From assembly GCF_029946185.1 (NCBI RefSeq), contig NZ_JAQSEA010000161.1:1-34805 (forward strand): DNA of 34,805 bases. Direction: 5' to 3'. Of this stretch, positions 3,201-34,403 are shown one piece after another. Position 1 is the stretch's first letter; every line of letters starts with the position of its first letter. The notes beneath the pieces were generated by a model, which was not told where the DNA came from, did no database searches, and was given only the letters and a program-made list of their open reading frames with translations. Source of the DNA: Prosthecobacter sp. (lineage in GTDB: Bacteria > Verrucomicrobiota > Verrucomicrobiia > Verrucomicrobiales > Verrucomicrobiaceae). A program made the position numbers and the translations under genes.

Positions 3201-4692
3201 GACCAAGCGAGCCGTTGCCATCGCTGCTGACGTAAAGGGTGCCATCGGGTGCGGCGGCGACGAAGACGGGGTAGTTCGCCGACTGCGGTGGGGCGAAGAG
3301 GGAGACTTCGAAGCCATCCGGCACCTTCACGTCCTTCAAGATGGCAGCCTCCTGCTCGGGCGTGAGCTTGACGATTTTTGGGGTGACGTTGCCAGCGTCT
3401 TTGAGCGGGTCGGCGGCTTTGTCGTATTGCTGCTGCTGCGCGGCGCTGAGCTTGGGGGCGACGGCTTTGATGCTTGGGCCTTTGAAGGTGACTTCCTTGA
3501 TGCTGGCCCAGCCGCCGCTGGTTTTTCCGAGGGCGTGGATCTTCACGAAGCGAATGCCGTCGGCCTTGGCGAAGTCGTTCGAGTAGGGCGCGTTCTTGGT
3601 GTTGGCGCTGCCATCGACGAGTGTGCTCCATGTTTTGCCATCGGTGCTGCCTTCGACTTTGAACTGATACACGCCACCGTTTTCCCAGGTGGTGGCGATG
3701 CCGGTGAGCGTCTGCGGCTTTTCGAGTTCAAGCTGGAGCCACTGCGGATAGGAGGGGCTGCTGGCGCACCAGCGGGTGTTGGGATCGCCATCGACGGCTT
3801 TCCAGGCATAGTTGCCCTTGCCGGACTCTTCGCTGCTGGCACTGGCTTTGATGGGCAGGGCATCCTTGGGCGGTGTGGGGGGCGTCGCTGGCTTTGGGGC
3901 TGCGACGGGCTTGGCGGCGACAAACGTTACTTTATTTTCGCCTTTGAAAGGGGTGAGGTATTCCGGCGTGAGCTTGTCCATGGACCAGAGCAAGCCGCGT
4001 GTAACGAGATCAAGGTAACGTGCATCGGCGACGGTTTCGTTGTTATGCCCAATGGTGGTGCTGAAGCTGCGGGCACCGGATTTTTCATTGGTCCAGGCCA
4101 CCACGTAGTCAACGTCCTTGCCTTTGACGACCTGCTTGCCCATGGCGAGCGGATGGCCGTCGAAGATATTCACATTGTTGTACAGCTCCTCTTTGATGGT
4201 GGTCCAGTCGGCCAGCGGCTTGGTGATCGGGTGCTCTTTATCGACAAACGTGAGGGCGATGGGCTCCTGCGGGCCGTGGGAGGCGGACTGGATGCCGAGG
4301 TGCTTGAACCAGGCATCGGTGCCGGTGCGGAAGCTGTGCATGGCGCAGTGCAGATGCACGGCGGGGATGGTCTTGTGGGCATCGAGAATGCGCTTCACCA
4401 CGGCCATGTCACGCAGGCCGGCGGCGCATTCGTCATGGATGATGATGTCGTAGCCTTTGGCCCAATCGGGATTGTCGTAGAGCGGCAGCGGCGGGTTGAC
4501 GGATTTGTCATCCGTCCACACCACATCGACCTGGACATTGGCGCGTGACTGGATGCCCTGGCTGAGGATCAGATGCTGCTTGGCGTAGTCATGGCAGCAG
4601 CCTCCGGCGACGAGGAGGGCTTTGAGCGGCTTGGGTTCAGCGTGGCCGGTGGTGGCGAGGGCGAGGAGGAGCAGGAGGGCAAAAGAACGCAT
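262..4692 (-). CDS. Secreted ThuA / F5-8 type C / PVC dehydrogenase / HEAT / cytochrome c fusion protein
   Basis: This large exported protein (1476 aa from the chosen start) probably oxidises or binds carbohydrate-like material and passes electrons to heme. That role is inferred; the substrate is unknown. From the N-terminus it has a signal peptide (MRSFALLLLLALATTGHA) and a ThuA-like domain (about 22-240, with GHNNE near its end). A Pro/Ala linker and a discoidin (F5/8 type C) domain follow (about 278-405). Next come a glucose/sorbosone-dehydrogenase-like propeller of the PVC membrane-bound dehydrogenase type (about 460-850, rich in DGDG motifs), a HEAT-like helical region (about 850-1330) and a C-terminal PVC-type heme domain with CIACH at 1353-1357 (bases 622-636). 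The frame stays open upstream to 4857. I chose 4692 because it gives a clean signal peptide; ATG at 4719 is the alternative. No Shine-Dalgarno is visible. Bases about 1690-2290 look less G-rich than the flanks. Family assignment is firm, function is not. Confidence 0.9.
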   Translation of the reverse strand: MRSFALLLLLALATTGHAEPKPLKALLVAGGCCHDYAKQHLILSQGIQSRANVQVDVVWTDDKSVNPPLPLYDNPDWAKGYDIIIHDECAAGLRDMAVVKRILDAHKTIPAVHLHCAMHSFRTGTDAWFKHLGIQSASHGPQEPIALTFVDKEHPITKPLADWTTIKEELYNNVNIFDGHPLAMGKQVVKGKDVDYVVAWTNEKSGARSFSTTIGHNNETVADARYLDLVTRGLLWSMDKLTPEYLTPFKGENKVTFVAAKPVAAPKPATPPTPPKDALPIKASASSEESGKGNYAWKAVDGDPNTRWCASSPSYPQWLQLELEKPQTLTGIATTWENGGVYQFKVEGSTDGKTWSTLVDGSANTKNAPYSNDFAKADGIRFVKIHALGKTSGGWASIKEVTFKGPSIKAVAPKLSAAQQQQYDKAADPLKDAGNVTPKIVKLTPEQEAAILKDVKVPDGFEVSLFAPPQSANYPVFVAAAPDGTLYVSSDGNGSLGRAPHRGRILRLKDHDGDGRADEVKEFVKDVDAPRGLVWDKDRLYLVHPPHLSAYIDKDGDGVADEEKVLVKNIAFGYKDRPADHTTNGLSLGIDGWLYIAGGDFGFMDAEGTDGKHLQHRGGGVIRVRPDGTGLEVYSTGTRNILEVAISPLMDIFARDNTNDGGGWNVRFHHFTGLDDHGYPRLYKNFPDECIAPLADYGGGSGCGAVYIDEPGFGQWNNAPFTCDWGTGALWHHQVKPKGATFEETRPPEPFIKMTRPTDADVDGNSRVYCASWKGATFNWEGPDVGYIVQVKPKGFKPEPLPDFAKAKDEELVKQLESPSYRRRMEAQRELVKREWGGTHQKLLESLNHFNSSYDIAWAVAQLGAVVNHAGAKGVLESSQGFADDEMKLQWNISRHMGRVPVIKSKSDHGDQTAPLRINTIPRWVGQGPDDPSILHLAMIERFVATRDAEHLVSHSMPSELAGSSVLTLITVEASRRLGNDAAREWLQQLDGSKHPQITDLALRCLRVVHTPEVVSGLISRLTTATDPALRQGILAALCRLHFHEGEWKGDSWSTRPDTRGPYYQPEPWSETPKIAAALKDALAKASPDEAAFLVKEMNRNRIQSSDALDRILVLAKQDAKVIPDAVAQLATADTIPADAIPLLITAANSKQLDPQSAAATLANTLTAIAKTDSAAAWTAALNALITLDAQQGSGKEQEAGRTAFLNAPKLENVHQAFEAEAAKVGTPTAIWAEAALLSLAERKTGSPESREMSQKALAAGWTDAKRRLQIISAAVKIKSHAIDDKILAATSDSDPHLSKAAQNAVKSLKLVAKGEDKTPKIGSLKPEDALTAVLKTKGDIALGEQIFTKATCIACHTTKESEAQKGPYLGNIAQTYKRPELAQNILDPNKTIAQGFASEVITLNDGTQQLGFITLESADNVKLRNITAQEFTFAVKDIKSRQKLPISIMPPGLLANYSVHEFASLLDYLESLAKK

Positions 4693-4879
4693 GAGGGAAA
4701 GGGGGAGAAGAAGGCGCATAAAAAGCGGGGTTTCTATCAGGAAAGTATTGGATTCGACCGGATCAAAGACCCGCAGTAGAGCGGACCTCAGGCGGAAAGA
4801 AAGCCTGGGTAGCATCTCCAGAAGAAGAGGCCTTGTTGGAATGAGAATTTCCATCAAATCGGTTGGCGCAGGCTCGTTC

Positions 4880-5107: not shown

Positions 5108-5956
5108 TCATTTCCCAAACCGTGCCTTGATGAGGTGGCTGCCGAGGATCCAGACCTTGTGCAGTTTGCTGAGGCGGGCGCGCTTGGTGAAGACGGGGTA
5201 ACGCTCGCGCTTGAGCTTTTCGAGGATGCGCGAGTAGATCGCTGCCATGATCTCGGAGGCGACCATGTTTTTGCGGTCTTCGGGCGGCAGGGCTTTTTGC
5301 GCGGCATCGTAGTAGCTGCGCGCGCGGGCATATTGGAAGTCCATCATCTTGATGAAGCGCTCGCTGGGGCGGGCGTGGAGGATCTCGCTTTCCAGCACGC
5401 CGAATTTTCGCAGCTCGGCCTGGGGGAGGTAGATGCGGCCGGTGTCGCGGGCGTCCTGGCCGACGTCGCGGATGATGTTGGTGAACTGGAGGGCGTAGCC
5501 GAGATTGATGGCGTATTCCTTGGTGGCGGGATTTTGATGGCCGAAAATCTCGATGCTGACGAGGCCGACGACGCTGGCGACCTTGTAGCAGTAGCCGAGC
5601 AGTTCCTCAAAGGTCTCGTAGCGGGTCTTGGTGATGTCGCTGGCGACGCCGTCGATGATCTCGCAAAGCCAGGCGCGGGGGAAGCCGTATTTTTCTGGCA
5701 GCACGATCATTTCATCGAGCACGGGGTGGCCGGGCGGATTGCCTGCCTCCACGCAGTGCTTCCAGTGGTTGAGCTCTTTCTCTTTGTCCGCCGGGCTGGC
5801 ATCGGGGTCGTCGGCGATGTCATCGACGACACGGCAGAAGGCGTAGAACGCGATCATGTCGCGGCGGCGTTCCTTGGGCAGGCAGGCGAGCGCGAAAGCG
5901 AGGTTCGACTTGGCCCGCCGCACGATTTGTTCTGGAGAAAGCGTGCCGCTGGTCAT
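5108..5956 (-). CDS. Squalene/phytoene synthase family protein
   Basis: This is a 282-aa head-to-head prenyl synthase, expected to join two farnesyl- or geranylgeranyl-diphosphate molecules in the first step of hopanoid/squalene or carotenoid synthesis. The first Asp-rich motif is DDIADD at 45-50. The second is in TNIIRDVGQDARDTGRIYLP, with Asp164 and Asp168 placed to bind Mg-diphosphate. No C-terminal membrane anchor is seen, as in bacterial HpnC/HpnD/CrtB enzymes. The frame is open far upstream to 6340, but ATG 5956 fits the family N-terminus and overlaps the stop of the upstream membrane-protein gene as ATGA, which implies translational coupling. HpnD (presqualene diphosphate synthase) seems the likeliest subtype, but phytoene synthase cannot be excluded from sequence reading alone. 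Confidence 0.9.
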   Translation of the reverse strand: MTSGTLSPEQIVRRAKSNLAFALACLPKERRRDMIAFYAFCRVVDDIADDPDASPADKEKELNHWKHCVEAGNPPGHPVLDEMIVLPEKYGFPRAWLCEIIDGVASDITKTRYETFEELLGYCYKVASVVGLVSIEIFGHQNPATKEYAINLGYALQFTNIIRDVGQDARDTGRIYLPQAELRKFGVLESEILHARPSERFIKMMDFQYARARSYYDAAQKALPPEDRKNMVASEIMAAIYSRILEKLKRERYPVFTKRARLSKLHKVWILGSHLIKARFGK

Positions 5957-7029
5957 GCGGAGGGAGAACGTGAAAAGCCAAAGCGCAGCATGAGAAGTAG
6001 GGCTGTTAGCAATAGCCAGCAATCCAGCATGGCAAGCACCAAAGCGTTCAGCGGCAGCAAGATCATGCACCATAGGGGCGATCCGGCACAGGCTGCGCGA
6101 CCCATTTCCACCGCATAAAGAGCGAGAATCAAAAAGGCGAGGGCGGTGATGGAGAGCAGGAAGAGGGGCACGGCAGCCCGCCACAAAATGCGCAGGGCAG
6201 CGGCGCCCTGCTGCCAGAAGGGGCCGGGAGCCGCCGCCACGGCGACCGGAAGCGCGGCAAAGAGAATGAGCAGTTCCACCCACCACCATGCGCCCACGCT
6301 TTGGGGGGTGCTGAGCTGCCACCAGCGCCAGCTCATCCAAAGCAGATTGAACCCCGCGAGATAGGCCACGCCCTGCCAGCGCGCAAAGGTATGCTCCAGT
6401 GCGGCGGCGGCATCACCGTCGGTTTCTGTGTCGTGCGGGTTTTCCCATTCGATGAGAAAGCGTACCAGCCATACCTGCACACCCGCCGCAGCTATGGCGG
6501 TGAAAATGTAACGCAGACCAAGTTTCATTGTCTCCACCCATTCGGGCAGCATTTTGCGCAGACTTGCCCCTTCCATGACAAGCCAGGCAAAGCCGATTAA
6601 TGTAACGCTTAAAAGGATACATTTTTGCTCCAGTACCGGCCTACGCTCTCCGTAGCGGTAGGGCCAGCGCCAGATGCGGATCGTCAAAAAAACAAGCAAC
6701 AGAGGCATCGCGCAGGCCAGCGGCCAAGGCGGGAGAAGAGCATGCGGAAGCATGGCCAGGTGAGCCAGCGCATCGCGCGCCAGCGGGAGGATCATATCTT
6801 CCCAGTCCGTGAGCTGATGTAACGGATAAGACGTGACTTTCTCGCCACTTAAAGCCGCGGCCAGCAGCATGGCTCCGGCGGTGCAGGCCATCAACACGGG
6901 GTGGAGGCGCAGGCAATCCCATGCGTCTGACAAATGCCTGCGCAGCGGATGCCAGAGCAAATGCAGCACCAGCCCGACTGTACAGCCGAGAAGTGCGAGT
7001 GCGGTGGATTGCCAGGAGGTCAGATTCAA
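5953..7029 (-). CDS. Polytopic membrane protein of unknown function
   Basis: I do not recognise this 358-aa protein. It is strongly hydrophobic with about seven or eight membrane segments, for example near residues 8-27, 45-62, 105-120, 138-155, 170-190, 225-245, 255-270 and 285-350. It is rich in Trp and Leu, with charged loops such as WENPHDTETDGD near residue 216 between segments. No catalytic motif is evident. Its TGA overlaps the ATG of the squalene/phytoene synthase gene, so the two are almost certainly one operon and made in a fixed ratio. A role in handling or transporting an isoprenoid lipid is a guess from context only. The start ATG 7029 lies 66 bases from the divergent start at 7096, so the two promoters must share that short gap. 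Confidence 0.75.
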   Translation of the reverse strand: MNLTSWQSTALALLGCTVGLVLHLLWHPLRRHLSDAWDCLRLHPVLMACTAGAMLLAAALSGEKVTSYPLHQLTDWEDMILPLARDALAHLAMLPHALLPPWPLACAMPLLLVFLTIRIWRWPYRYGERRPVLEQKCILLSVTLIGFAWLVMEGASLRKMLPEWVETMKLGLRYIFTAIAAAGVQVWLVRFLIEWENPHDTETDGDAAAALEHTFARWQGVAYLAGFNLLWMSWRWWQLSTPQSVGAWWWVELLILFAALPVAVAAAPGPFWQQGAAALRILWRAAVPLFLLSITALAFLILALYAVEMGRAACAGSPLWCMILLPLNALVLAMLDCWLLLTALLLMLRFGFSRSPSA

Positions 7030-7095
7030 GGGTATTGATCAATTCGCTAAAACATCTCGACATGCCAGTGCGTATTCGCTTCTCTCCCATTCGAC

Positions 7096-8448
7096 ATGAA
7101 ATCACCCGCCGCCCTCCTTCTCGCCTCTTTGTTGCTCTCTTCCGCTGCTATCGCCGAAAACTGGCCGAGCTGGCGCGGGCCGAACCAAGACGGCTCTTCG
7201 GGTGAAGCGGGCCTGCCGGAAAAATTCAGCACCACCGAAGGCGTGAAGTGGGCGACTGAGATGCCGGGGCTGTCCGCCTCCGTGCCGGTGATCTGGGGCG
7301 ACAATCTTTTCATCACAGCTCCGATTGTGGCGGAGAAAAAACTCGTGGGCCTGTGCTATGACACGAAGACCGGCAAGGAAAAGTGGCGCGTGACCGTGAG
7401 CGAAGGCTCGGAGATTCAGTGGGACGACAAGAGCAATCTCGCCAGCCCTTCCGCCGTGACGGATGGTGATCACGTTTACTTCCTGTTTGCCAACGCCATC
7501 GCCGCCGCGTGTGATTTCAGCGGCAAGATCGTGTGGAAGCGCGACTTTAAAGAGACGCACGGCGCCTTCGCCACGCAGTGGACCTATGGCAGCAGCCCCG
7601 CGCTGGACGGTGGAAAGCTCTACATCCAGGTGCTGCAGCGCAATGAGGCCTTCAAATTTCAGGACAAGTTTGAAAAAGGCACCGCCGGCAAGGACATGAG
7701 CAGCTACATCCTCGCTCTGGATCCAGCCACCGGGAAGGACCTCTGGAAGCAGATCCGCCCGAGCCTCGCGAATACCGAATCGCTGGAGGCTTTCAGCAGC
7801 CCGATCTTCGCGACTGACAAAGGCCAGCGCCTGATGCTCATCTCCGGGGGCGATACGCTGACCATTCACGACGCCGCCACGGGCACCGAACTCTCCCGCA
7901 TCGCCACGTGGAACCCACCGGGCGAAGGCTACAACAAGTTCTTCCGCCTCGTCCCCTCCCCTGTCACAGGCGACGGCATGGCCATCGTCTGCGCGCCGAA
8001 GAATTCTCCTATCTACGCCATGCCATTGGATTCCAAAGGCGAGACCCAACCGGTCTGGCAGACGGAGCCGAAGGGTGTGACCAGCGACGTGCCGACGCCT
8101 GCCTTCTATAAGGGCAAATTCTACGTGCTGGATGGCGGCAAGAAGACCCTGAGCTGCCTGGAACCGAAGACGGGCAAGGTGGTGTGGACCGGCGAACTCG
8201 GCGGCAAGACGAAGTTTGAAAGCAGCCCGACCGTGGTGGATGACAAAGTGTACTGCATCAACTTCTGGGGCGAGGTCTATGTGGCTAAGGCGAATACGGA
8301 CAAGTTTGAACTGCTCTCCATGAATGAAATGGGCAACGGGTCCAAGCCAAATGGAAATGCGGCAAGTGTTCGCGCAAGCGTGGCGGTGAGCGATGGGTGC
8401 CTTTTCATCCGCACGCAGGAGAAGCTGTTCTGCATTGGGAAGAAGTGA
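7096..8448 (+). CDS. Secreted PQQ-like beta-propeller repeat protein
   Basis: This 450-aa protein has a signal peptide (MKSPAALLLASLLLSSAAIA) and the opening WPSWRGPNQDGSS typical of planctomycete/verrucomicrobial outer-membrane PQQ-propeller proteins (PQQ_2-like). Blade motifs recur, such as LDPATGKDLWKQ near 210 and LEPKTGKVVWTGELGG near 355-370. The ending LFIRTQEKLFCIGKK is characteristic of the last blade. These proteins are secreted or periplasmic. Some bind PQQ as dehydrogenases, others are scaffolds; I see nothing that proves cofactor binding. Its 3' end shares a 20-base identical string with the remnant at 9220-9270. No Shine-Dalgarno precedes ATG 7096. Confidence 0.88.
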   Translation: MKSPAALLLASLLLSSAAIAENWPSWRGPNQDGSSGEAGLPEKFSTTEGVKWATEMPGLSASVPVIWGDNLFITAPIVAEKKLVGLCYDTKTGKEKWRVTVSEGSEIQWDDKSNLASPSAVTDGDHVYFLFANAIAAACDFSGKIVWKRDFKETHGAFATQWTYGSSPALDGGKLYIQVLQRNEAFKFQDKFEKGTAGKDMSSYILALDPATGKDLWKQIRPSLANTESLEAFSSPIFATDKGQRLMLISGGDTLTIHDAATGTELSRIATWNPPGEGYNKFFRLVPSPVTGDGMAIVCAPKNSPIYAMPLDSKGETQPVWQTEPKGVTSDVPTPAFYKGKFYVLDGGKKTLSCLEPKTGKVVWTGELGGKTKFESSPTVVDDKVYCINFWGEVYVAKANTDKFELLSMNEMGNGSKPNGNAASVRASVAVSDGCLFIRTQEKLFCIGKK

Positions 8449-8615
8449 GACGCGCGGCCTTAATGTAACGATGGGATTACCTGCCCTCATCCACCCCGAG
8501 TCGGCCGACCACTCGGGCCACAGCGCCTTCGTTGCCCCCCTTTGGAGCAGGCAGGAGGCATTGGACACCTTTGGGTGGCAGGGCGCGCTCGCAGAAGAAA
8601 GTGCCCAGGAGCGCG

Positions 8616-8772
8616 GGGCCTCCGAGCCCGCAGCAGGTCGTCCGCGCTTGTCGGGTGTAGGTGCACGCTGCGCATCGCAAACACGCGGATCATCGAGCGC
8701 GATGCATCTTCCAGAGGGTGCGGCAAAAGCGGGGCGATTTCTGTTTGCGGAGTGCTGCGGGCTCGGAGGCCC
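8616..8772. repeat. 20-bp perfect inverted repeat (family E)
   Basis: GGGCCTCCGAGCCCGCAGCA at 8616-8635 is repeated exactly as its reverse complement, TGCTGCGGGCTCGGAGGCCC, at 8753-8772, with 117 bases between. No target duplication or ORF is evident. By layout it resembles the other inverted-pair elements in this window. It is the only copy seen here, so it cannot be called a family from this window alone. Confidence 0.6.
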
Positions 8773-9219
8773 GCGCGCCTAGGCCTTTGTTGCGCTGTGG
8801 TTCTTAATCCACGAAAGCCGCCTCCTAAACGCCCTTGGTATCAGGTATCAAATCGGTATCGTGATACCAAATCCCACCTCCCAACGGTGAAGCGGAATGA
8901 GCCAGTGATCCCAACACCCAAAACCCACCGCCCAGCAGAATCACCGCCGGGTTCATCCAAGAAGCTGCCCCTAGAACCCATGGAGCGGGCACGAAGGAGT
9001 GAAATCCCAGTCCGCGCTGATAGACTTCGGCGCAAATCCGCCCTTCGGCACTGAAGTAAGGCCAAGGGCCAGGGGGGCCAAACCGGTGCCATTTGGCCCC
9101 ATGGCCCCACTCCGGAGTTTGGTGCCAAGGTGCCAACACCTGCCCTGAAAACTCAACGGGTTCACAGATCCTTCCATTCAACACACCGCCGGGCATGGCG
9201 GGCGCTGGGGTCGGCGCGC

Positions 9220-9270
9220 ACTCCTGCCTTCTATAATGCGACCAGCGTGGCGGTGAGCGATGGATGCCTG
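9220..9270 (+). pseudogene. Remnant of a PQQ-propeller gene
   Basis: Read in frame, this stretch encodes TPAFYN followed directly by ATSVAVSDGCL. In the intact gene at 7096-8448 the matching peptides TPAFYK (from 8095) and ASVAVSDGCL (from 8374) are about 90 residues apart. The string AGCGTGGCGGTGAGCGATGG occurs identically at 8377-8396 and 9244-9263. The simplest reading is a decayed paralogue or partial duplication with an internal deletion, cut off on its right by the repeat starting at 9279. It has no start and cannot be functional. Confidence 0.5.
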
Positions 9271-9278
9271 CCTCTAGA

Positions 9279-9439
9279 GTACGATGGGCGCTCCTGCCCG
9301 TCGGTCAGCGCTCCCGCAATCACACCAGCCCTCATCCTCTCCAATCCGGCCGGGCACTCGGGACCCACAGCCTAGACAAATTCGCGAACCGTTGACCTTG
9401 GCAGTGACGCTGACCGACAGACAGGAGTGTCTGTCGTAC
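9279..9439. repeat. BIME-like inverted-pair element family B, copy 1
   Basis: The left arm begins GTACGATGGGCGCTCCTGCC and runs on through CGTCGGTCAGCG. The right arm is its imperfect reverse complement and ends CTGTCTGTCGTAC at 9439. Each arm folds on its own into an 8-bp hairpin with a conserved CTCC loop (GGAG on the other strand). In the right arm the stem is GACAGACA/TGTCTGTC; in the left it is GATGGGCG/TGCCCGTC, pairing with G-T wobbles. The element ends 54 bases before the next gene start. Confidence 0.7.
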
Positions 9440-9493
9440 TTCCCTGCTGGGCTGACAGGATTGACGCCCAATGGCCGTTTGTGATGCTCTCTC

Positions 9494-10867
9494 ATGCTCA
9501 CCCGCGCCCTCACCCTCCTCGTCACCGCCGCATCGCTCGCTCATGCGGCCCCTTCCGAACACGTCATCCTGATCAGCATCGACGGCTGGGCGCATCAGTA
9601 TTTTGATGATCCGAAGTGCCACATGCCGACGGTGAAGGCGCTGGCGGCGAAGGGCGTGCGGGCGCAGCGGATGGAGTGCTCGTTTCCGACGGTGACGTGG
9701 ACGAACCACACGACGCTGGTCACCGGGGTGCATCCGGCGAAGCATGGGGTGCTGGCGAATGAGTACTTTGACCGCGCCACACGGAAGAAGGTGCCGCTGA
9801 TTCCTGATCCGATCTTCAACAAGGAGGAGATCGTGAAGAGCCCGACGATTTATGACGCGGCCAAGGCGGCCGGTTTGACCACCGCCGGGGTGATCTGGCC
9901 TGCCTCACGCGGGGCGAAGACGCTGGACTGGACGGTGCCGGATGTGTTTGATCAGGCGTTGTTTGAGAAATACGGCACGCCTTCCCTGCTGGAGGATGCG
10001 CGCGCGGCGGGCATCCCGATCGAGAAACAGAATGAGTGGTGCAAGATGGGCAATCCGGGCAAGGCGATGCGGGATTACATGTACTCGCTGCTGGCGCAGC
10101 ACATCATCAAGAAGCACAAGCCGAACTTCCTGGCGCTGCATCTGGTGAGCCTTGATTCCTTTGAGCATGGGCATGGCCGTCAGGTGGCGGAGGCCTACTG
10201 GGCGGCGAATGATTCGGACAATCGCGTGGCAGACATCGTGCGTGCCACGCAAGAGGCGGGCATCTTCGACAAGACGACTTTCGTCATCACGACGGATCAC
10301 GGCTTTGTCACCTACACGAAATCCATCAATGCCAATGCGGCGCTGCGGAAGGATGGTCTGGTCAAATCGGTGCTGGGCAAGAGCCTCGCGCCCGACTCGC
10401 AGGTGTTCGCGATGGCTGAGGGCGGCGCGTGCTTCGTCTATGTGCTGGATGACGCGAATCGCGATGGCATTTTGAAGCAGATCATACCCACGCTGGGCAA
10501 GCTGGAAGGTGTGGAGGGCGTGGTGGAGGCGAAGGATTTCGACAAGAAGCTGCACCATGTGACTGCGGCGAAAGATTCCCGCGAACCCGACCTCGTGCTG
10601 TACGCAGCGGATGGCTACACCTTCACCGATTCCCTCGCTGACACCAACGTCATCATCCCGAACGATCCACCGAAGGGCGCCCACGGCCATTTGCAGACGG
10701 ACCCGAATCTCTATGGAGGCTTCGTCATCAGCGGTGCCGGCGTGAAGCAGGGCGCGGTGCTGGAGGAGATGAAGAACATCGATGTGACACCGACGATGGC
10801 GAAGCTGCTCGGCATCCCATTCCCCGGCGCGGATGGGCGGGTGCTGGATGAGGTGCTGGCGAAATAA
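9494..10867 (+). CDS. Secreted alkaline-phosphatase-superfamily phosphodiesterase (NPP-like)
   Basis: This 457-aa exported enzyme (signal peptide MLTRALTLLVTAASLAHA) belongs to the type I phosphodiesterase / nucleotide pyrophosphatase family. It should hydrolyse phosphodiester or phosphomonoester bonds with two metal ions. Visible active-site elements are Asp30 in LISIDG, the nucleophile region FPTVTWTNHTTLVTG with Thr68 as the likely nucleophile, and LVSLDSFEHGHG, which supplies Asp and His ligands. ITTDHGF (Asp-His) and the late AHGH motif complete the site. Length and motif order match NPP-type enzymes. It probably starts a two-gene unit, since the zinc-ribbon gene follows after 12 bases. 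The substrate cannot be told from the sequence; nucleotides or phospholipid headgroups are possible. Confidence 0.9.
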   Translation: MLTRALTLLVTAASLAHAAPSEHVILISIDGWAHQYFDDPKCHMPTVKALAAKGVRAQRMECSFPTVTWTNHTTLVTGVHPAKHGVLANEYFDRATRKKVPLIPDPIFNKEEIVKSPTIYDAAKAAGLTTAGVIWPASRGAKTLDWTVPDVFDQALFEKYGTPSLLEDARAAGIPIEKQNEWCKMGNPGKAMRDYMYSLLAQHIIKKHKPNFLALHLVSLDSFEHGHGRQVAEAYWAANDSDNRVADIVRATQEAGIFDKTTFVITTDHGFVTYTKSINANAALRKDGLVKSVLGKSLAPDSQVFAMAEGGACFVYVLDDANRDGILKQIIPTLGKLEGVEGVVEAKDFDKKLHHVTAAKDSREPDLVLYAADGYTFTDSLADTNVIIPNDPPKGAHGHLQTDPNLYGGFVISGAGVKQGAVLEEMKNIDVTPTMAKLLGIPFPGADGRVLDEVLAK

Positions 10868-10879
10868 GCACAGTCACTC

Positions 10880-11233
10880 ATGAAGAAGGCCGACCACCAA
10901 CTGTCCAAGCTAAGGCTGCGCAAAGTCTTGGACGACCGGCCGCGACGCATTCGAATGCTGCTGGAGCGCGGCTTGATCCAAAATGCGTCGGAAATTCCTG
11001 ACGACGCGATTCCTATTGATCCAGAGGTCTCGACCCAGGCCACCCTCTGCATCCCGGCGGTTTGCTACCAAGACATCACATTTGTCTGCACCGACTGCGG
11101 CAGGCCTGATTTTTGGTCCGCTGGCTCGCAGCAGCATTATTTCGAGTTTTCGAAGGCATCGCCCTATAGCAGACCGAAGCTTTGCTATGATTGCAGGCAG
11201 AGAAACTGGCAGGGAGGGCAGGCGCTGAAATAG
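10880..11233 (+). CDS. Zinc-ribbon domain protein
   Basis: This small cytoplasmic protein (117 aa) has a basic helical N-terminus (residues 5-32, rich in Arg/Lys). A zinc ribbon of the probable-zinc-ribbon (zf-trcl-like) type follows: CTDC at 70-73, then FWSAGSQQHYFE, then CYDC at 102-105. The Trp-Ser-Ala-Gly and aromatic pattern between the Cys pairs is what makes me choose that family. The role is unknown; such domains usually bind nucleic acid or stabilise small proteins. It begins 12 bases after the phosphodiesterase stop, so co-transcription is likely, though a functional link is not obvious. Confidence 0.75.
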   Translation: MKKADHQLSKLRLRKVLDDRPRRIRMLLERGLIQNASEIPDDAIPIDPEVSTQATLCIPAVCYQDITFVCTDCGRPDFWSAGSQQHYFEFSKASPYSRPKLCYDCRQRNWQGGQALK

Positions 11234-11280
11234 GTTCTATAAGACTATCGGATCTTATTTGATCAAGGGCCGCGAAGGGT

Positions 11281-11375
11281 GCCTCCGGCAGGAGTGGGAG
11301 CATCCTGCTCCCTCAGCGCTCCGCGTTCATCCACCTCTCTTCTCAAACAGGGACCAGGATGGTCCCTCTCCTTCC
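11281..11375 (+). repeat. BIME-like unit of REP family C (tandem unit 1)
   Basis: This 95-bp unit holds two inverted REP-like hairpins. The first is GGAG, one base, then GGGAGCATCCTGCTCCC (11296-11312). The second is GGGACCAGGATGGTCCC (11350-11366), followed by TCTCC, which is GGAG plus hairpin on the other strand. The unit repeats 107 bases later. It starts 48 bases after the zinc-ribbon stop codon and lies between convergent genes, so it may also stabilise or end the transcripts. Confidence 0.78.
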
Positions 11376-11387
11376 AAGCAACCCGGC

Positions 11388-11482
11388 GCCTCCGGCAGGA
11401 GTGGGAGCATCCTGCTCCCACAACGCTCCGCGTTCACCCAGCCCTCTTCCCAAACAGGGACCAGGATGGTCCCTCTCCTTCC
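11388..11482 (+). repeat. BIME-like unit of REP family C (tandem unit 2)
   Basis: This is the second 95-bp unit, separated from the first by 12 bases and differing only at scattered positions. Its hairpins are at 11403-11419 and 11457-11473 and are identical in stem sequence to those of unit 1. It ends 22 bases from the stop codon of the minus-strand lipoprotein gene (11504). The rest of the gap 11234-11503 holds nothing else. Confidence 0.78.
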
Positions 11483-11503
11483 ACACCTTGCGTGCGTTAC
11501 TGC

Positions 11504-12145
11504 TTACAGCATGCCGGGCGTGTAGCGCGGGCGGTTGTCGGTGCCGGCACCGATTTGCTGGCGCATGCGGTTGTCATCCAGGGCGCGGTCCACCGCATCC
11601 TGCAGGGCACGGGAGGTCAGTTCGCGGAGGACGGGGACAGGCGAGCCGCTGCCGGGACGGTAGGCTGTGCTCTGGCGCTCGCCTTCATAGACGCGGGTGT
11701 GAATCACCCGGCCGGAGGTGGCTTCCACCACATTCACGCGGATGCGCGCATAGCCATAGGGATGCACGAGGAGCTGGGAGCGCAGGTCCTGGATTTCTCC
11801 GGTGATGATGAAACGGCCCTTCACGTCTGTGGCCAGCATGCCGCGTGACTCCAGCGCGTAGGCGAAGGCGTTGCGTACGACATCGCTGACTGGCAGGCGG
11901 GTCTGGATGGTATCGACCGTGGGGCCGATGGGCAGACGCACATGGCCGAGCGTCTGGGCCTGCTCACCGCGCTTGTCCTTGAACTCACCGACGGCAAAGT
12001 CTGGCGCTCCCCGCATCATGCGACCGCCCTGCGGCACGTAGTCGAGGCTGACGATCGAGGAATTGGAACAGGACGAGAGACTGAGGCAGGCTGCGGCTCC
12101 GACAAGAATGGCTGAAAAGCACCTAAAGTTCATGGTCGCCATCAT
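11504..12145 (-). CDS. Lipoprotein, YajG-like
   Basis: This is a predicted lipoprotein of about 213 aa. The N-terminus MMATMNFRCFSAILVGAAAC is followed by LSLSSC, a good lipobox with Cys26 as the lipidated residue. The mature part has FAVGEFKDKRGEQAQTLGHV and PVSDVVRNAFAYALESRGM. This beta-strand plus conserved-helix pattern recalls YajG and related outer-membrane lipoproteins, but the match is by eye and moderate. The frame is open to 12250. I prefer 12145 (alternatives 12142 and 12133) because the upstream residues spoil the signal peptide. Its 3' end faces the tandem repeats at 11281-11482. It is divergent from the L,D-transpeptidase gene, with which it shares a 140-base promoter region. 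Confidence 0.8.
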   Translation of the reverse strand: MMATMNFRCFSAILVGAAACLSLSSCSNSSIVSLDYVPQGGRMMRGAPDFAVGEFKDKRGEQAQTLGHVRLPIGPTVDTIQTRLPVSDVVRNAFAYALESRGMLATDVKGRFIITGEIQDLRSQLLVHPYGYARIRVNVVEATSGRVIHTRVYEGERQSTAYRPGSGSPVPVLRELTSRALQDAVDRALDDNRMRQQIGAGTDNRPRYTPGML

Positions 12146-13437: not shown

Positions 13438-16400
13438 ATGATGAACCAGCATTGCAATGAGCCTACTCAAGCCATTACGCAAGCAGCCCGCGAAGCTGCG
13501 AGTGCGAACAACATTCCCAGTATTGCTGAGACCTGCGGGACCATACCAGAAGCGGTCTGGAAAGCAGTCAAAGCGTCCCTCCGTGGCTGCTGCCGCCCGC
13601 TATTTTTCACGGCCCTCCTTGCGCTCCCGCTGACACAGGCCCATGGGCAGCTCCCACCCTCACTAGGTGCAGCGTCAACATTCACCATTTTGGGGGGCTC
13701 GACGGTGACTAACACCGGAGGGACAAACATTGTTGGAGATGTCGGTGTCTACCCTGGGTTTGCCATCACTGGATTCCCCCCTGGAACTGTGATCGGAACT
13801 ATTTATGCCGGGATCGCACCGGCGGATACAGCCCACGCCGATACCATTACGGCCTACAATACCATTGCCACCACCCCCTTTACCAATGACTTGACCGGCA
13901 TCGATTTGGGAGGTCTCACGCTTACACCAGGAGTCTATTTCTTCAGCTCATCAGCCCAGCTGACAGGCAATCTACACCTGGACACTCTGGGAGATCCCAA
14001 TGCGCTCTTCGAGTTTCAAGTCGGCAGTACGCTGACGACGTCGAGTCTTTCCACCGTTTCGACCGTGGGAGGCGGCATCGACCCGAATATTTTCTGGCAA
14101 ATCGGGAGTTCCGCGACCTTGGGAATCGGCACGTCGTTTATGGGCAATATCCTAGCTATGGACAGCATCACTTTAACCACGGGTGCTTCGCTTTCCGGCG
14201 GGCGAGCGCTGGCCATCACCGGTGCCGTCACACTGGACACCAACAACGTCTCCAATGTGGGAAGCCTGCTACCTTTGGTAGTTACAGGAACTTATTGGAA
14301 CGGAGGAACCAGCGATCTTTGGTCACAAATCAACTGGTCAACAGATACGTCAGGGGCCGACACTGTGAATATGCCGCTGGCTGGTGCCAATCTGGTTTTC
14401 TCAGTGACAGGCATCGTGCCGATCAGACAGGCGACCCAGCTTGATTTCGACGCGGACATCAGCAGTCTGACGGTGAATGACAGCGTCGCTGTGAGTATTT
14501 CCGGGACGAACACACTGACTATTTCAGGAGCCGGTCTCATCACGGGAATCAGCATCAACCCAGGCGCAGGATTGACCACCATCGCGACCCGCTTGATTTT
14601 GGCAGGAACCTCCCAGACCATCACCGTCAACAATCTTGACGGAATGGTGATCAGCGGCGTGGTCGATGGCACGCTCGGGCTAACCAAAGCGGGCAGCGGA
14701 ACACTGACGCTCACCGGTGCGAACATCTACACCGGAGCGACCAATGTCAACGCAGGCACATTGCAAGTGGGCAACAGTTTGACTGGATCACTCAACGCAA
14801 CATCACTGGTCACCGTGGCAACAGATGCGACCATGCTCATTGATTTGGCTAATGGCGGAACTTTCAGCAACAATGTGGTCAATGACGGCCTGGTCCAATG
14901 GATTGCACCCGGCACCAACACCCAGGCCTCTACCAGTGTGATCACTGGAGTGGGAAGAATGGCGATCACCGGAGCAGGCACCACGGTGCTGCTGGGCAGC
15001 AACCTCTTCAGCGGCGGAACGACCGTCAATACCCCCGGCAATGTGCTGGTCGGCAACCCGCTCGGCGCCACCTCGACGGCGTTCGGCACGGGTGTGCTGA
15101 CCCTCACCAACGGCAACGTGGACACCTTCAACTCCCAGGTGCTCCAGATCAATGTGGGTGGGTATTCACAAACCGGCGGCCAGATCGGCATCCACCTGCT
15201 GGGTGCGACGCCTGGCACCTACACCCAGTACAATGTGACGGGAGCCGGCAATCTGACCGGTGGAGCAGTCGCCCCTTATGATCTCAGCGGCGTCTATGTA
15301 CCCAGCGGTGGCGATGTACAAAACTTCCTCCACACCACGGGAGGGCTTACCGGTCAGTTCCCCTCCAATTTCCCAGCCGCCCCCATTTACAACACCGCTT
15401 TTAACCAGATCTTCGTCTATCAGCAAGGCAGCACGCTGCTCTACCCGCAGATCACCTATGACCCGAACAACGCCTACCTCACCTGGGTGCAGTCGTCGTT
15501 CCAAACGGTTCCCGGTCTCACCCCGAATCAGGGAGCCGTGGCGACGCTGCTCGATCAATGCCAGCTGATGCATCCCGGTGGTGGCGATCCCGCTCTCACC
15601 TACCTCAACGCCCAGAATATCGGGGCACTCCCAGGGCTCTATGACCAGATCGCCCCTGATGAACTGACAGCGATCTTCCAGGCGGGCTTCCAGGCGGCCG
15701 CAGCGCAGGCAACCACCGTCAAGCAGCATCTTGATCAGGTGCGCAACAACGCAAACGGCTATACGGCCAACGGTTTCAATCCATCATCTGGAAACCCCAA
15801 CGGTGCACCGGTAGGACTGGAAAACCAGCGCTGGAGTTTCTACGTACAGGGCCTCGGCAATGGCGCATCAGCCAACGGCACCGCGAATGCGAGCGGCTAT
15901 AGTTTCATGGCAGTCGGAGGCACGGTGGGGGCAAGCTACCTGGTCAACAATCATTTCGTGGTGGGGGCTTCCGGCACTTACTCAGACACCACCGCCAGCC
16001 TGACCAATGGTGGCAGCATCCAAATGGACAGCTATCGCAGCAACGTTTACGCCAGCGTGTTTGGAGGCGGCTTTTACCTGGATGCACTGATGGGCCTGAG
16101 CTACAACTCTTATGACACGATTCGTTCATCTCTGCTAGGCATGGCCACTGGCGGCACGAACGGAGTCCAGTTCGACTCAATGCTCAATGGTGGTTACGAT
16201 TTTCATGCGGACAATTGGATGTTTGGTCCAGTGGTGTCATTGGGCTACACCCAGGTGAATCTCAACGACTTCACTGAAAGCGGTTCACTGACCCCTCTAA
16301 ACTTTCCCAATCAGTACCAGAGTTCACTGCGTTCGAATCTCGGCATCCGCGTCAGTTTCACGACAATGCTGAAGAGCGTCCGCATCACCCCGCAGTTGCG

Positions 16401-16644
16401 CCTCTCCTGGCAGCATGAGTATCTCGACAACACTCAGTCGATCACCTCTCAGCTCGCGCTGTGCCCGGGTTCCATGTTCAGCGTGAGCGGTCCCATGATG
16501 GGCCGCGACAGTGCCTTGGTGAACATCGGGCTGACGGCGCAGATCACCCCCATGGTCAGCGCTTACGCCTTTTATGGCGGCCAATTCGGCAGCACCAATT
16601 ACACTTCCCATAGCGTGAATGCTGGCGTCATGATCAGCTTCTAA
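13438..16644 (+). CDS. Autotransporter with N-terminal ice-binding-like (DUF3494) domain
   Basis: This 1068-aa surface protein has an extended signal region (hydrophobic core about 54-68, ending AHGQ). An ice-binding-like domain of the DUF3494 family spans about 76-270: LGAASTFTILGGSTVTNTGG, then VVGDVGVYPG-like blocks, TLTPGVYFFSSSAQLTGNL and IFWQIGSSATLGIGTSFMGN. Next come passenger-associated beta-strand repeats, for example LTKAGSGTLTLTGANIYTGA near 420 and a degenerate one near 510-540, and a linker. The C-terminal autotransporter beta-barrel (about 790-1068) ends VNAGVMISF with the terminal Phe expected for barrel assembly. The domain should therefore be displayed outside the cell. DUF3494 proteins bind ice or act as adhesins; which applies here is unknown. 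Two adjacent ATGs start the frame; no Shine-Dalgarno is seen. The gene converges with the glucanotransferase gene, with only 17 bases between stops. Confidence 0.9.
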   Translation: MMNQHCNEPTQAITQAAREAASANNIPSIAETCGTIPEAVWKAVKASLRGCCRPLFFTALLALPLTQAHGQLPPSLGAASTFTILGGSTVTNTGGTNIVGDVGVYPGFAITGFPPGTVIGTIYAGIAPADTAHADTITAYNTIATTPFTNDLTGIDLGGLTLTPGVYFFSSSAQLTGNLHLDTLGDPNALFEFQVGSTLTTSSLSTVSTVGGGIDPNIFWQIGSSATLGIGTSFMGNILAMDSITLTTGASLSGGRALAITGAVTLDTNNVSNVGSLLPLVVTGTYWNGGTSDLWSQINWSTDTSGADTVNMPLAGANLVFSVTGIVPIRQATQLDFDADISSLTVNDSVAVSISGTNTLTISGAGLITGISINPGAGLTTIATRLILAGTSQTITVNNLDGMVISGVVDGTLGLTKAGSGTLTLTGANIYTGATNVNAGTLQVGNSLTGSLNATSLVTVATDATMLIDLANGGTFSNNVVNDGLVQWIAPGTNTQASTSVITGVGRMAITGAGTTVLLGSNLFSGGTTVNTPGNVLVGNPLGATSTAFGTGVLTLTNGNVDTFNSQVLQINVGGYSQTGGQIGIHLLGATPGTYTQYNVTGAGNLTGGAVAPYDLSGVYVPSGGDVQNFLHTTGGLTGQFPSNFPAAPIYNTAFNQIFVYQQGSTLLYPQITYDPNNAYLTWVQSSFQTVPGLTPNQGAVATLLDQCQLMHPGGGDPALTYLNAQNIGALPGLYDQIAPDELTAIFQAGFQAAAAQATTVKQHLDQVRNNANGYTANGFNPSSGNPNGAPVGLENQRWSFYVQGLGNGASANGTANASGYSFMAVGGTVGASYLVNNHFVVGASGTYSDTTASLTNGGSIQMDSYRSNVYASVFGGGFYLDALMGLSYNSYDTIRSSLLGMATGGTNGVQFDSMLNGGYDFHADNWMFGPVVSLGYTQVNLNDFTESGSLTPLNFPNQYQSSLRSNLGIRVSFTTMLKSVRITPQLRLSWQHEYLDNTQSITSQLALCPGSMFSVSGPMMGRDSALVNIGLTAQITPMVSAYAFYGGQFGSTNYTSHSVNAGVMISF

Positions 16645-18439: not shown

Positions 18440-19699
18440 ATGATGTGTTCCCCATTCCTGACGATGCTGCTGTTTTTGTCGATTTCCGCCGCCTCGGCAG
18501 CGGACACGAAGGAGCTGCGCGTCATCGATTTCAAGGGGCCGCCGCATAACTACCTTGCCTGGAAGCCGAAGGACCGCTTTGCCGAGCTGCAGGAGAAGGC
18601 GCTGAAAGGCGAGGTGAAGCTGGATACTACGAACGACAAGGCCTTCCTGACGAGCCTGCTGGCGGCGCTGAACATCCCCATCAACTCGCAGACACTGGTG
18701 TTTTCCGCGAGTTCGCTGCAAAGCGAGATCATCAATCCGCGCAACCCACGCGCGCTGTACTTCAACGAGGACACCTACCTCGGCTGGGTGCCGGGTGGGA
18801 TGGTGGAAATCATTGCCGCAGATCCCGAGATGGGGCCGATGTTTTATGTTTTTGACCGTCTGCGCCCCGGCGGGCCGGTGCCGAATGTGACGCGCTCGAC
18901 GAAGTGCATGAACTGCCACGCGGGCAAGGCGACACGGCGGCTTCCGGGACTGATCGCGGAGTCGCTGCTGGTCTCGCGTGCGGGATCGAGCCTGGAGACG
19001 TTTCGGCGGGATGTGCAGGGGCACCAGATTCCGCTGGAGGATCGCTTTGGCGGCTGGCACCTGACCGGCGATCATAACCTGACGCCGAACCGTGCGAACG
19101 TGATGGGCGTCCCGAACAACGGGAAAAACCAGATCGTCCCGGTAGAGCCAGGGCAGTATTCAGACCTGGGACTGCACCTGCTGCCCACCAGCGACATCCT
19201 GCCCAATCTGATGAACGAGCACCAGATGGGCTTCGAGAACCGGCTGGTCTATGCCATCTACACCCTGCGCCAGCTCAAGAGCGATAGCAAAGGTCTGCTG
19301 GGCGCTGCGGCGAAGGCGGAGATCGAGGAACGTGCGCAGGAGCTGGCACGGTACATCACCTTTGCCGATGAGGCCAAGTTTCCCACCAAAGGCATCGTGG
19401 GCGATCCTGCCTATGCGCAGGATTTCCTGCGCGACCGCAAGATGTCAAAGACGGGCCTGTCTCTGCGGGATCTCGATTTGAAGACCCGCATGTTCAAACA
19501 CCGCTGCAGCTACATGCTCTACACGGACACCTGGAAAGCCACGCCGAAGGAGCTGAAGGAACGCATCTATTATCACATGGCGCTGTACCTGCGGGAGATG
19601 CCGGATGCGCAGCACGCGCATCTGGCCCCAGCGGAGAGAGTGGCGATCCGGGGGATTTTGAAGGAGACGATGACGGATCTGCCGGCGTGGTGGAGGTAG
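18440..19699 (+). CDS. Secreted monoheme c-type cytochrome-like protein, uncharacterised
   Basis: This 419-aa protein is exported (signal peptide about 1-20, MMCSPFLTMLLFLSISAASA) and has a single heme c motif, CMNCHAG, at 156-162. The motif lies in the middle of the chain, not in a small cytochrome fold. The flanking sequence (YLGWVPGGMVEIIAADPEMG at about 113-132, RLPGLIAESLLVSR at about 166-179) resembles large PVC-group proteins with one embedded heme whose function is unknown to me. The C-terminal third is helical and charged (RERIYYH-like segments, MALYLREMP). A role in periplasmic electron transfer is inferred from the heme motif only. It is divergent from malQ, and its end is followed by family B hairpins and the convergent nadA gene. 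The two Met codons at 18440 and 18443 are alternative starts. Confidence 0.75.
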   Translation: MMCSPFLTMLLFLSISAASAADTKELRVIDFKGPPHNYLAWKPKDRFAELQEKALKGEVKLDTTNDKAFLTSLLAALNIPINSQTLVFSASSLQSEIINPRNPRALYFNEDTYLGWVPGGMVEIIAADPEMGPMFYVFDRLRPGGPVPNVTRSTKCMNCHAGKATRRLPGLIAESLLVSRAGSSLETFRRDVQGHQIPLEDRFGGWHLTGDHNLTPNRANVMGVPNNGKNQIVPVEPGQYSDLGLHLLPTSDILPNLMNEHQMGFENRLVYAIYTLRQLKSDSKGLLGAAAKAEIEERAQELARYITFADEAKFPTKGIVGDPAYAQDFLRDRKMSKTGLSLRDLDLKTRMFKHRCSYMLYTDTWKATPKELKERIYYHMALYLREMPDAQHAHLAPAERVAIRGILKETMTDLPAWWR

Positions 19700-21708: not shown

Positions 21709-21783
21709 GCGCGATTAGCTCAGTGGTAGAGCATTACCTTGACATGGTAGGGGTCACAGGTTCGAACCCTGTATCGCGCACCA
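21709..21783 (+). tRNA. tRNA-Val (anticodon GAC)
   Basis: The cloverleaf reads well. The acceptor stem is GCGCGAT/ATCGCGC, the D arm GCTC/GAGC, and the anticodon arm TTACC-TTGACAT-GGTAG with anticodon GAC. The T arm is ACAGG-TTCGAAC-CCTGT, and CCA is encoded at 21781-21783. It is 75 nt with a 5-base variable loop. No duplicate of its 3' end was seen in the window, so there is no sign of an integrated element here. Confidence 0.96.
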
Positions 21784-26761: not shown

Positions 26762-28195
26762 TCACGCCAGAATCTCACTCACCACGCGCGCTTGCGGATT
26801 CTCCACGAGCACCTGATCGGTGCCGTTGCGCTTGTAGCTGAGCTTGTGGGCGTCGAGGCCGAAGAGGTGGAGGAGGGTGGCGTGGTAGTCGAAGTGATTG
26901 ACGACGTCCTTCACGGCGTGGTGGCCGAAGTCGTCGGTGGCGCCGTGGATGTGGCCGGCTTTGAAGCCGCCGCCGGCGACCCACATGCTGAAGCCGTAGG
27001 TGTTGTGATCGCGACCGACGGTGCTGCGGTCCTTGGAGCCGGAGCGGTTTTGAATGACGGGGAGGCGGCCCATCTCGCCGCCCCAGTGGACGATGGTGGA
27101 GTCCAGCAGGCCGCGCTGCTTCAAGTCGATGACGAGTGCGGCGGCACCTTGATCGACATAGGTGCAGGCGGCGGGCAGTGCGGTGCGGATGTTTTGATGA
27201 TTGTCCCAGGTCTGATTGGCGGTGAAGAGGGAGATGCAGCGCACGCCGCGCTCGACGAGACGGCGGGCGATGAGGCAGCGGGTGCCGAACTCGGCGGCGG
27301 CGGGGTTGTCGATGCCGTAGAGCTTCTTGGTGGCGGCGCTTTCCTGATCGATGTTGAGCGCTTCCTTGGCGGCGGTCTGCATGCGGGCGGCGAGTTCAAA
27401 GCTCTGGATGCGCGCTTCGAGATCGGCCTCGCCGGGGCGGGCTTCGAGGTGCTCCTGGTTCAGGCGCTGCACGAAATTGAGGTAGCGGGCCTGGGCATCG
27501 CCTTTCAGGCTGAGGGGCGCATCGAGATTGGGAATGCGCGGCTCTTTGGGACGAATGACGGTGCCCTGAAACAGGGAGGGCAGCCAGCCGTTGCTCCAGT
27601 TGTCCACGCCGAGCACGGGCAGGCCGCGTGGATCGGTGAGGGCGACGTAGGCGGGCAGATCCTGATTTTCGGAGCCGAGTCCATACGTAAGCCAGCTACC
27701 CAGCGTGGGCCGGCCACCGGTGGCCTGACCATTGAGCAGGGCGTAGATCGACTGGCCGTGATTGTTCACGCCGGTGTGCATGGAGCGGATCATCGTCACA
27801 TCATCGACGATGTTGGAAAAATGAGGCATCAGCTCGCTGACATCCATGCCGGACTGGCCGTATTGTTTGAACTTCCATGGGCTGCCCATGCACTCGCGGC
27901 TGGCTCCGGCGGCATCGTCGTATTTCACTTCGCCGGGAAAGTCCTTGCCGTCGTAGCGGGTGAGCTCGGGCTTGGGATCAAATAGATCCACATGGCTGGG
28001 GCCGCCCTGCATGAACATGGAGATCATGGCCTTGGCCTGACCAAAGCCGTGGGGCATCTTGGGCTTGAGATCAAAATGGCGCGGGCCGATCTGCTCCGGG
28101 CTGGCGAGGAGATTCTGTTCCTTCAGCAGCGTGGCCAGGGCGATGCCGCCGATGCCGTAGGCGGAGCGGTGAAGAATAGAACGGCGTGAGAGCAT
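26762..28195 (-). CDS. DUF1501 family protein
   Basis: This 477-aa protein belongs to the DUF1501 family, sulfatase-fold-like proteins common in Planctomycetes and Verrucomicrobia. The N-terminus MLSRRSILHRSAYGIGGIAL looks like a Tat signal with an SRRSxL-type twin-Arg. Family features are AMISMFMQGGPSHVDLFDPK, DVSELMPHFSNIVDDVTMIR, MHTGVNNHGQSIYALLNGQA and, near the end, HWGGEMGRLPVIQN, RDHNTYGFSMWVAGGGFKAG and GATDDFGHHAVKD. It is probably periplasmic. These genes are usually paired with a DUF1549/DUF1553 cytochrome gene, but none is adjacent here. Function is unknown, though co-occurrence with sulfatases and c-type cytochromes suggests polysaccharide breakdown. No Shine-Dalgarno is evident. 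Confidence 0.92.
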   Translation of the reverse strand: MLSRRSILHRSAYGIGGIALATLLKEQNLLASPEQIGPRHFDLKPKMPHGFGQAKAMISMFMQGGPSHVDLFDPKPELTRYDGKDFPGEVKYDDAAGASRECMGSPWKFKQYGQSGMDVSELMPHFSNIVDDVTMIRSMHTGVNNHGQSIYALLNGQATGGRPTLGSWLTYGLGSENQDLPAYVALTDPRGLPVLGVDNWSNGWLPSLFQGTVIRPKEPRIPNLDAPLSLKGDAQARYLNFVQRLNQEHLEARPGEADLEARIQSFELAARMQTAAKEALNIDQESAATKKLYGIDNPAAAEFGTRCLIARRLVERGVRCISLFTANQTWDNHQNIRTALPAACTYVDQGAAALVIDLKQRGLLDSTIVHWGGEMGRLPVIQNRSGSKDRSTVGRDHNTYGFSMWVAGGGFKAGHIHGATDDFGHHAVKDVVNHFDYHATLLHLFGLDAHKLSYKRNGTDQVLVENPQARVVSEILA

Positions 28196-33413: not shown

Positions 33414-34403
33414 TCACGCCGCCTGCTGCGCTGGTGTCTTCACCTGATCGAGCAGCTTGGTGATGATGTCGTCCACCCGCACCTGGCTGGCTTCGCCTTC
33501 GAAATTCAGGATGATGCGGTGGCGCAGTGAGACGTGGGCGATGGCACGGATGTCGTCGGTGGAGACGGCAGTGGCCCCCTGAATGGCAGCCCAGACGCGG
33601 GCACCGCGAATGAGCGCCTGCAGGCCACGTGGGCTGGCGCCGTAGGAGACGTAGCGCTTCACTTCCGACAAGGCATCAGGCTGTTCGGGATGGGTGCTCA
33701 AGATCAACCGCGAAGCGTAGTGCGCCACGGGATCCGCCACGGGAATTTTGGAAAGCTGCTGCTGCATTTCGATCAGCTTTGGCCCGTCGGTCATCGTCGC
33801 GAGCTTCGGCTCGGTGAAGCCGGTGGTGCGGCGGGAGATTTCGACCAGCGAGTCGAGATCCGGGAACGGCACCTTGATCTTGAACATGAAACGGTCGAGC
33901 TGAGCTTCGGGCAGCGGGTAGGTGCCCTCCATTTCCATGGGGTTTTGCGTGGCGAGCACAAGGAAGGGTTCCGGCACCAGATGGCGCTCGCCGCCAGTGG
34001 TGACGCAGCGCTCCTGCATCACTTCGAGCAGCGCGGCCTGGGTCTTGGGCGTGGCACGGTTAATTTCATCCACCAGCAGCAGGTTCTTAAACACGGGGCC
34101 TTTTTCATAGCGCAGCGTGCGGTGGCCTTTTTCGTCTTCGCCGACGATGTGCGTGCCGAGGATGTCCGCCGGCATCAGGTCGGGCGTACACTGCACACGA
34201 CCGGGTTCCAAGCCGACCACCTGTGAAAGCGTGCGGACGAGGTAGGTTTTGCCGAGGCCGGGGACGCCTTCCAGCAGCACATGCCCGCCGGAGAAAATGG
34301 CGACGAGCACATCGCTGAGCAGTTCATCGTAGCCTACGATGGCTTTTTGCATCTCGGCCTTGAGATTGGTGAACAGGGTGCGGAAGTCTGCGTGGTCGGA
34401 CAT
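33414..34403 (-). CDS. MoxR-family AAA+ ATPase
   Basis: This 329-aa AAA+ ATPase is expected to work with the DUF58 protein as a chaperone-like complex. Walker A is GVPGLGKT (46-53), Walker B is LLLVDEINRA (108-117), and sensor 1 is in VLATQNPMEMEGTYPLPEAQ. The stretch LDRFMFKIKVPFPD follows, and the C-terminal lid has DALSEVKRYVSYGASPRGLQ. All are characteristic of the MoxR group. It is first in an operon with a lipoprotein and the DUF58 gene. The start ATG 34403 has no Shine-Dalgarno. The upstream gap to 34750 holds repeats but must also contain the promoter. Confidence 0.95.
   Translation of the reverse strand: MSDHADFRTLFTNLKAEMQKAIVGYDELLSDVLVAIFSGGHVLLEGVPGLGKTYLVRTLSQVVGLEPGRVQCTPDLMPADILGTHIVGEDEKGHRTLRYEKGPVFKNLLLVDEINRATPKTQAALLEVMQERCVTTGGERHLVPEPFLVLATQNPMEMEGTYPLPEAQLDRFMFKIKVPFPDLDSLVEISRRTTGFTEPKLATMTDGPKLIEMQQQLSKIPVADPVAHYASRLILSTHPEQPDALSEVKRYVSYGASPRGLQALIRGARVWAAIQGATAVSTDDIRAIAHVSLRHRIILNFEGEASQVRVDDIITKLLDQVKTPAQQAA

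Follow-up and report, generated by a model that had tools for sequence, protein, structure and literature searches.

The gene at positions 13438 to 16644 (plus strand) of the window, by which we mean the whole 34,805-nucleotide Prosthecobacter sp. stretch analyzed here, represents a real, well-formed and recurrent kind of protein, in all likelihood an ice-binding autotransporter displayed at the cell surface. The open reading frame (ORF) list and the translation place it at exactly these bounds, from ATG to stop, with 1068 residues. The Pfam search matched PF11999 (Ice_binding) at residues 84 to 271 (E 4e-53; 180.6 bits against a cut-off of 28.7), the PATR repeat PF12951 in two stretches, the best at residues 415 to 444 (45.6 bits against a cut-off of 27), and PF03797 (Autotransporter) at residues 802 to 1046 (E 3.5e-53; 181.4 bits against a cut-off of 26), while in NCBIfam both TIGR01414 (autotransporter barrel) and TIGR02601 (strand repeat) exceeded their cut-offs; these scores are far above chance. 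The first-pass annotation had read a DUF3494 domain, PATR repeats and a C-terminal barrel in one chain, and the Pfam search confirmed this order, with all three families above cut-off; PF11999 is present, and the predicted fold of the head is of the ice-binding type, as its match to 7bwy indicates. Its broader idea, in which an autotransporter carries a head of the ice-binding type as part of the same chain, is backed by the domain scores, the folds of the three parts, the recurrence in relatives and the purifying selection in five related fusion pairs, to which the window gene does not belong.

The AlphaFold2 model of the 1068-residue protein, built with 19 sequences, has a mean pLDDT of 76.3 and a pTM of only 0.49, so that the mutual arrangement of the parts is unsure, though single parts are confident. 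By inspection, the first 71 residues (13438 to 13650, plus strand; pLDDT below 50 at residues 1 to 71) may be read as an extended signal peptide, in which an unusually long N-region of about 50 residues and then a hydrophobic stretch at about residues 55 to 71 precede the head; upstream of the head, inspection found no in-frame ATG, GTG or TTG beyond the start, save an ATG at codon 2. Behind the head, a low-confidence link leads into a β-helical passenger or stalk with the PATR repeats (about residues 277 to 685; 14266 to 15492, plus strand), of which residues 287 to 685 of the model resemble the UpaB passenger 6bea (Z 21.4, rmsd 6.5 over 337 residues) and residues 306 to 688 resemble pertactin 1dab (Z 17.9, rmsd 5.6). 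DSSP of the model then gives a long helix of 32 residues (741 to 772; 15658 to 15753, plus strand), predicted to thread the barrel. The C-terminal barrel itself occupies residues 799 to 1068 (15832 to 16641, plus strand), as seen from PF03797, TIGR01414, DSSP and the EstA/NalP fold match, and shows 12 long strands, counted by hand from DSSP, with Phe as the last residue. In the model, residues 703 to 1068 superpose on EstA 3kvn (Z 35.8) and residues 739 to 1068 on NalP 1uyn (Z 33.5), and both helix and barrel lie inside the ranges aligned to 3kvn, 1uyn and 4mee. Pfam and the predicted model contain two of the marks of a type Va autotransporter, a C-terminal barrel with a pore helix and a β-helix passenger. 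The type Va proteins EstA (3kvn), NalP (1uyn), AIDA-I (4mee) and pertactin (1dab) likewise combine a C-terminal barrel and threading helix with a β-helical PATR passenger, but their passengers are of esterase, protease or adhesin kinds with no ice-binding head, whereas the window protein has an ice-binding-type head.

It seems probable to us that the gene encodes a type Va (classical) autotransporter presenting a DUF3494 ice-binding head on a β-helix stalk. In this mechanism, the extended signal peptide would carry the chain across the inner membrane and the 12-strand C-terminal barrel would insert into the outer membrane; the passenger would then thread through the barrel and fold outside as the β-helix stalk with PATR repeats, bringing the N-terminal ice-binding domain to the far tip, where it would bind ice or hold the cell to ice. 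Exported and surface exposed in this way, the fusion protein would be of benefit through ice adhesion or the control of ice growth near the cell. Many autotransporter passengers are released from the cell, and a passenger that is cleaved and set free would turn the protein from an adhesin that stays on the cell into an antifreeze factor that is secreted. We regard this as less likely. The segment between helix and barrel (residues 774 to 794) has pLDDT values below 50 in the model and may be compatible with such a release, and a passage of PMC9957290 states that most characterized ice-binding proteins consist of one domain and a signal peptide; indirectly against it, L050 and L011, the stand-alone heads nearest to this one, have tails that look PEP-CTERM-like by eye and would also hold them to the cell.

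The ice-binding (DUF3494) head spans residues 72 to 276 (13651 to 14265, plus strand), and the ten-residue pLDDT means of residues 81 to 270 range from 75 to 95 in the AlphaFold model. Modeled residues 72 to 276 match AnpIBP 7bwy with a Z of 34.5 and an rmsd of 1.1 over 201 residues at 40% identity, and residues 68 to 281 match EfcIBP 6eio with a Z of 33.8 and an rmsd of 1.8 at 46% identity; the best PDB match by sequence alone is likewise 6eio (E 1.7e-45). The model shows the discontinuous triangular β-solenoid and bracing helix of the DUF3494 fold (helix 127 to 145, together with the 7bwy match). In the relevant part of PMC7783341, EfcIBP (6eio), AnpIBP and Nostoc nIBP, the last modeled on EfcIBP, are described as ice-binding proteins. 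The window protein shares its head fold with EfcIBP and AnpIBP (7bwy/7bwx) at 40 to 46% identity, and its head aligns to 6eio with very few gaps, while that part of PMC7783341 describes EfcIBP and AnpIBP without a capping head; by contrast, their solved chains, of 222 and 237 residues, consist of the ice-binding domain only, without stalk or barrel.

In the alignment, Thr or Ser occupies columns 227, 245 and 265 in 26 of 26 fused heads and column 198 in 25 of 26, compared with 25, 22, 27 and 15 of 27 non-fused rows, respectively; the columns were chosen by eye, and the rows share ancestry, with one non-fused gene entered twice (L004 and L026). The window head has His180 at a ladder column where 25 of the 26 fused heads have Thr. 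Judged from the sequences, the columns look like a threonine ladder and are nearly invariant among the fused heads. According to the section of PMC7966756 concerned, DUF3494 ice-binding sites have neither a repetitive sequence nor a consensus motif, so the ladder alone is no proof of ice binding.

The surroundings of the gene were compared as well. Neighbors with Pfam matches include GH77, an L,D-transpeptidase-like protein and a phosphodiesterase, with no pointer to cold. No conserved operon was found between the 19 window ORFs, at least two of which may be spurious, and 28 related loci, where matches were scattered at 25 to 43% identity. Three neighbors have notable homologues, all at least 8 kb from the fusion gene: a ThuA/DUF7133 protein (262 to 4857; distantly homologous proteins in three loci of the C211 class, L025, L027 and L029), a protein at 26762 to 28195 (homologues in L068 and L069) and one at 33414 to 34403 (homologue in L073). 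At 18440 to 19699 lies a 419-residue ORF that begins with a signal-like segment and matches no Pfam family at E 0.001. When the window was scanned with Rfam and for tRNAs, the sole match was a tRNA-Val at 21709, and promoter- and terminator-like sites around the fusion gene were at chance level. Autotransporters with β-helix stalks are commonly adhesins, and this fact, along with neighbors unconnected with cold and fusion loci lacking a conserved flanking gene set, would fit a surface adhesin or matrix protein whose DUF3494 fold is a generic β-solenoid tip for a non-ice target such as a sugar, the cell wall or a particle. Such a function is unlikely in our view, as the closeness of the head to solved ice-binding proteins, up to the 46% identity with 6eio, and the near invariance of the chosen ladder-type columns among the fusions speak against it.

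The fusion recurs across the order and is not a one-off. Sampling of 189 genomes across the order gave PF11999 in 33 and PF03797 in at least 113, and full-length one-ORF fusions were found in at least 16 (G000, G003, G012, G028, G041, G056, G058, G059, G064, G066, G074, G078, G111, G143, G149 and G172), a lower bound because PF11999 ORFs of at least 500 residues in G057, G066 and G134 fell outside the barrel check; the fusion of G183, cut by a contig end, was counted apart. The genome of the window has three PF11999 places and six PF03797 places, two of which are fusions, the window gene and C211. The third PF11999 place is a 278-residue frame, a stand-alone head whose C-terminus looks PEP-CTERM-like by eye; the Pfam search of this frame gave no PEP-CTERM match, while it did so for a related head that stands alone in L034. 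In a phylum sample of 387 genomes, PF11999 occurs in 34. The 20 regions outside the order with an open frame of at least 500 residues, which omit one weak below-cut-off match in G395, held two fusions (L149 and L152), as detected with a barrel profile built from this fusion family, which distant barrels could escape; the ORF of a further such locus (L150) runs off its contig within PATR-like sequence. A scan of genome contigs yielded 57 loci, with a fusion ORF in 15 (L085 begins at a contig edge, and 9 of the 15 lie on contigs equal in length to ones already in the genome samples) and a broken one in L078; an earlier scan of genome contigs with a single protein as the query gave no match. The labels of the 15 loci include Prosthecobacter sp., Verrucomicrobiaceae, Chthoniobacteraceae, Verrucomicrobium sp. 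BvORR106 and one "Bacteroidetes". This last fusion (L080:3621-7403) lies on a contig labeled Bacteroidetes (BOG), yet the tree places its barrel with verrucomicrobial ones; either a mislabeled contig or a gene transfer could account for this. In every fusion ORF found in the order, the phylum and the contig scan, the head stands ahead of the barrel.

In five pairs of related fusions, the dN/dS of the head was 0.119, 0.124, 0.027, 0.076 and 0.362, and values below 1 were obtained for head, middle and barrel alike in all five; the window gene was left out because its nearest head is just 65% identical. The head is therefore under purifying selection in these five pairs, from which the window gene is excluded. 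That two genes were joined by chance or in the assembly, as the many loci on MAG contigs could bring to mind, is extremely improbable and is already contradicted for the class by the second fusion in the genome of the window, the full-length fusions in 16 or more of the 189 genomes sampled across the order, one fusion on a record without a MAG label (Verrucomicrobium sp. BvORR106, L091) and the dN/dS below 1 for all three parts in 5 of 5 pairs.

The alignment reveals several forms of this architecture. In the window class the stalk is long and has PATR repeats, and in the C211 class it is a different one, while the compact class (L031, L061-L065, L068 and L071; 626 to 653 residues) consists of head, linker and barrel, with the stalk absent from the alignment; a model of the compact fusion L092, computed from one sequence, reached a mean pLDDT of 29.7 and was discarded. 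L060 and L069 carry a barrel of a different type. Three homologues without a head (L073, L074 and L070:9123-11969) share the stalk and barrel of the window protein, so the head is dispensable in some relatives. In L070, the fusion at 5377 to 8856 (minus strand) adjoins the head-less paralogue at 9123 to 11969 (minus strand), and the two have the same stalk and barrel in one genome. L027 (minus strand) has two fusions in tandem, one of them incomplete in this copy, and in L029 (minus strand) the fusion lies beside a 530-residue head-plus-PATR ORF without a barrel. Proteins of the same genus or order (L030:3211-5916, L032:3107-5254 and L033:3-2480) have two DUF3494 domains followed by SdrD_B-like domains and are possibly another tethered form.

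In the barrel tree (75 rows), 24 of the 27 fusion rows fall in one group, with the head-less trio inside; the 24 include the frameshifted L078, an interrupted L027 gene and L084, a presumed fusion truncated where its contig ends. Two other barrel lineages with heads, L080 on the one hand and L060 with L069 on the other, lie outside this core group; L149 and L152 are not in the tree, where several branches are long and their placement is unsure. The AU tests, whose p values are weakened because the groups were named after the trees were seen, rejected a single head gain for all fusions (27 barrels held together, p-AU 1e-37) and a clade of the 24 core fusion barrels excluding the head-less trio (p-AU 7e-5). 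We read the head-less trio as head loss; replacement or repeated gain is also possible. On the trees, the simplest reading would be that the core family gained the head once and lost it once, and that at least two further gains took place separately. In the head tree (53 rows), the heads of the window protein and of L070 are sisters (99/95) within a nine-row group (97/89), which includes L011 and L050, the stand-alone heads of the same genus described above. The core-fusion heads as one clade (23 rows) were rejected as well (p-AU 5e-10, also a group named after seeing the tree). As these heads do not form one clade, it is probable that head exchange or fusion took place repeatedly, also among barrels of one family.

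The combination of DUF3494 and an autotransporter is already in print. Table 1 of PMC9957290, on Arctic sea-ice and sea-water metagenomes, has a row pfam11999_pfam03797 (24.83 RPKM, 0.30%), with the same two Pfam domains in one gene as in the window protein; the row is labeled Secretion and names no gene, taxon, model or mechanism. The ice adhesins of Marinomonas primoryensis and Shewanella frigidimarina, as outlined in the same source, are also cell-tethered ice-binding proteins, but the tether is made of immunoglobulin-like repeats, whereas the window protein would use its own type Va barrel. The authors of PMC4838330 modeled ChloroIBP from Chloromonas sp. on the pertactin β-helix passenger and suggested a pertactin-like origin; this protein differs in being algal, and it is called secreted in the title, with no barrel described in the portion concerned. 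PMC8286594, in its relevant part, lists PF11999 as an adhesive domain and PF03797 as an anchor and does not join them there. In the open-access literature searched, we found neither the modularity of DUF3494 autotransporters in print nor an experimental study of such a fusion. What our analysis adds is how the modules have evolved, together with the compact forms and those without a head.

Tentatively, we suggest that in Verrucomicrobiota the type Va autotransporter could be a recurrent modular display route, in which varied DUF3494 lineages are placed on one largely dedicated barrel family and at least two others, with long β-helix stalks or none, while the same kind of head is otherwise PEP-CTERM-like-anchored; these proteins might form a new class of ice adhesins, each encoded by one gene, in bacteria that live in lakes, ponds and soils. 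Should the head bind ice, a single gene would suffice to place an antifreeze domain on a Gram-negative surface, which would suggest how some verrucomicrobia hold on to ice or control it. The same protein would then be a natural display scaffold, and its long, short and head-less versions would allow the roles of head and stalk to be compared.
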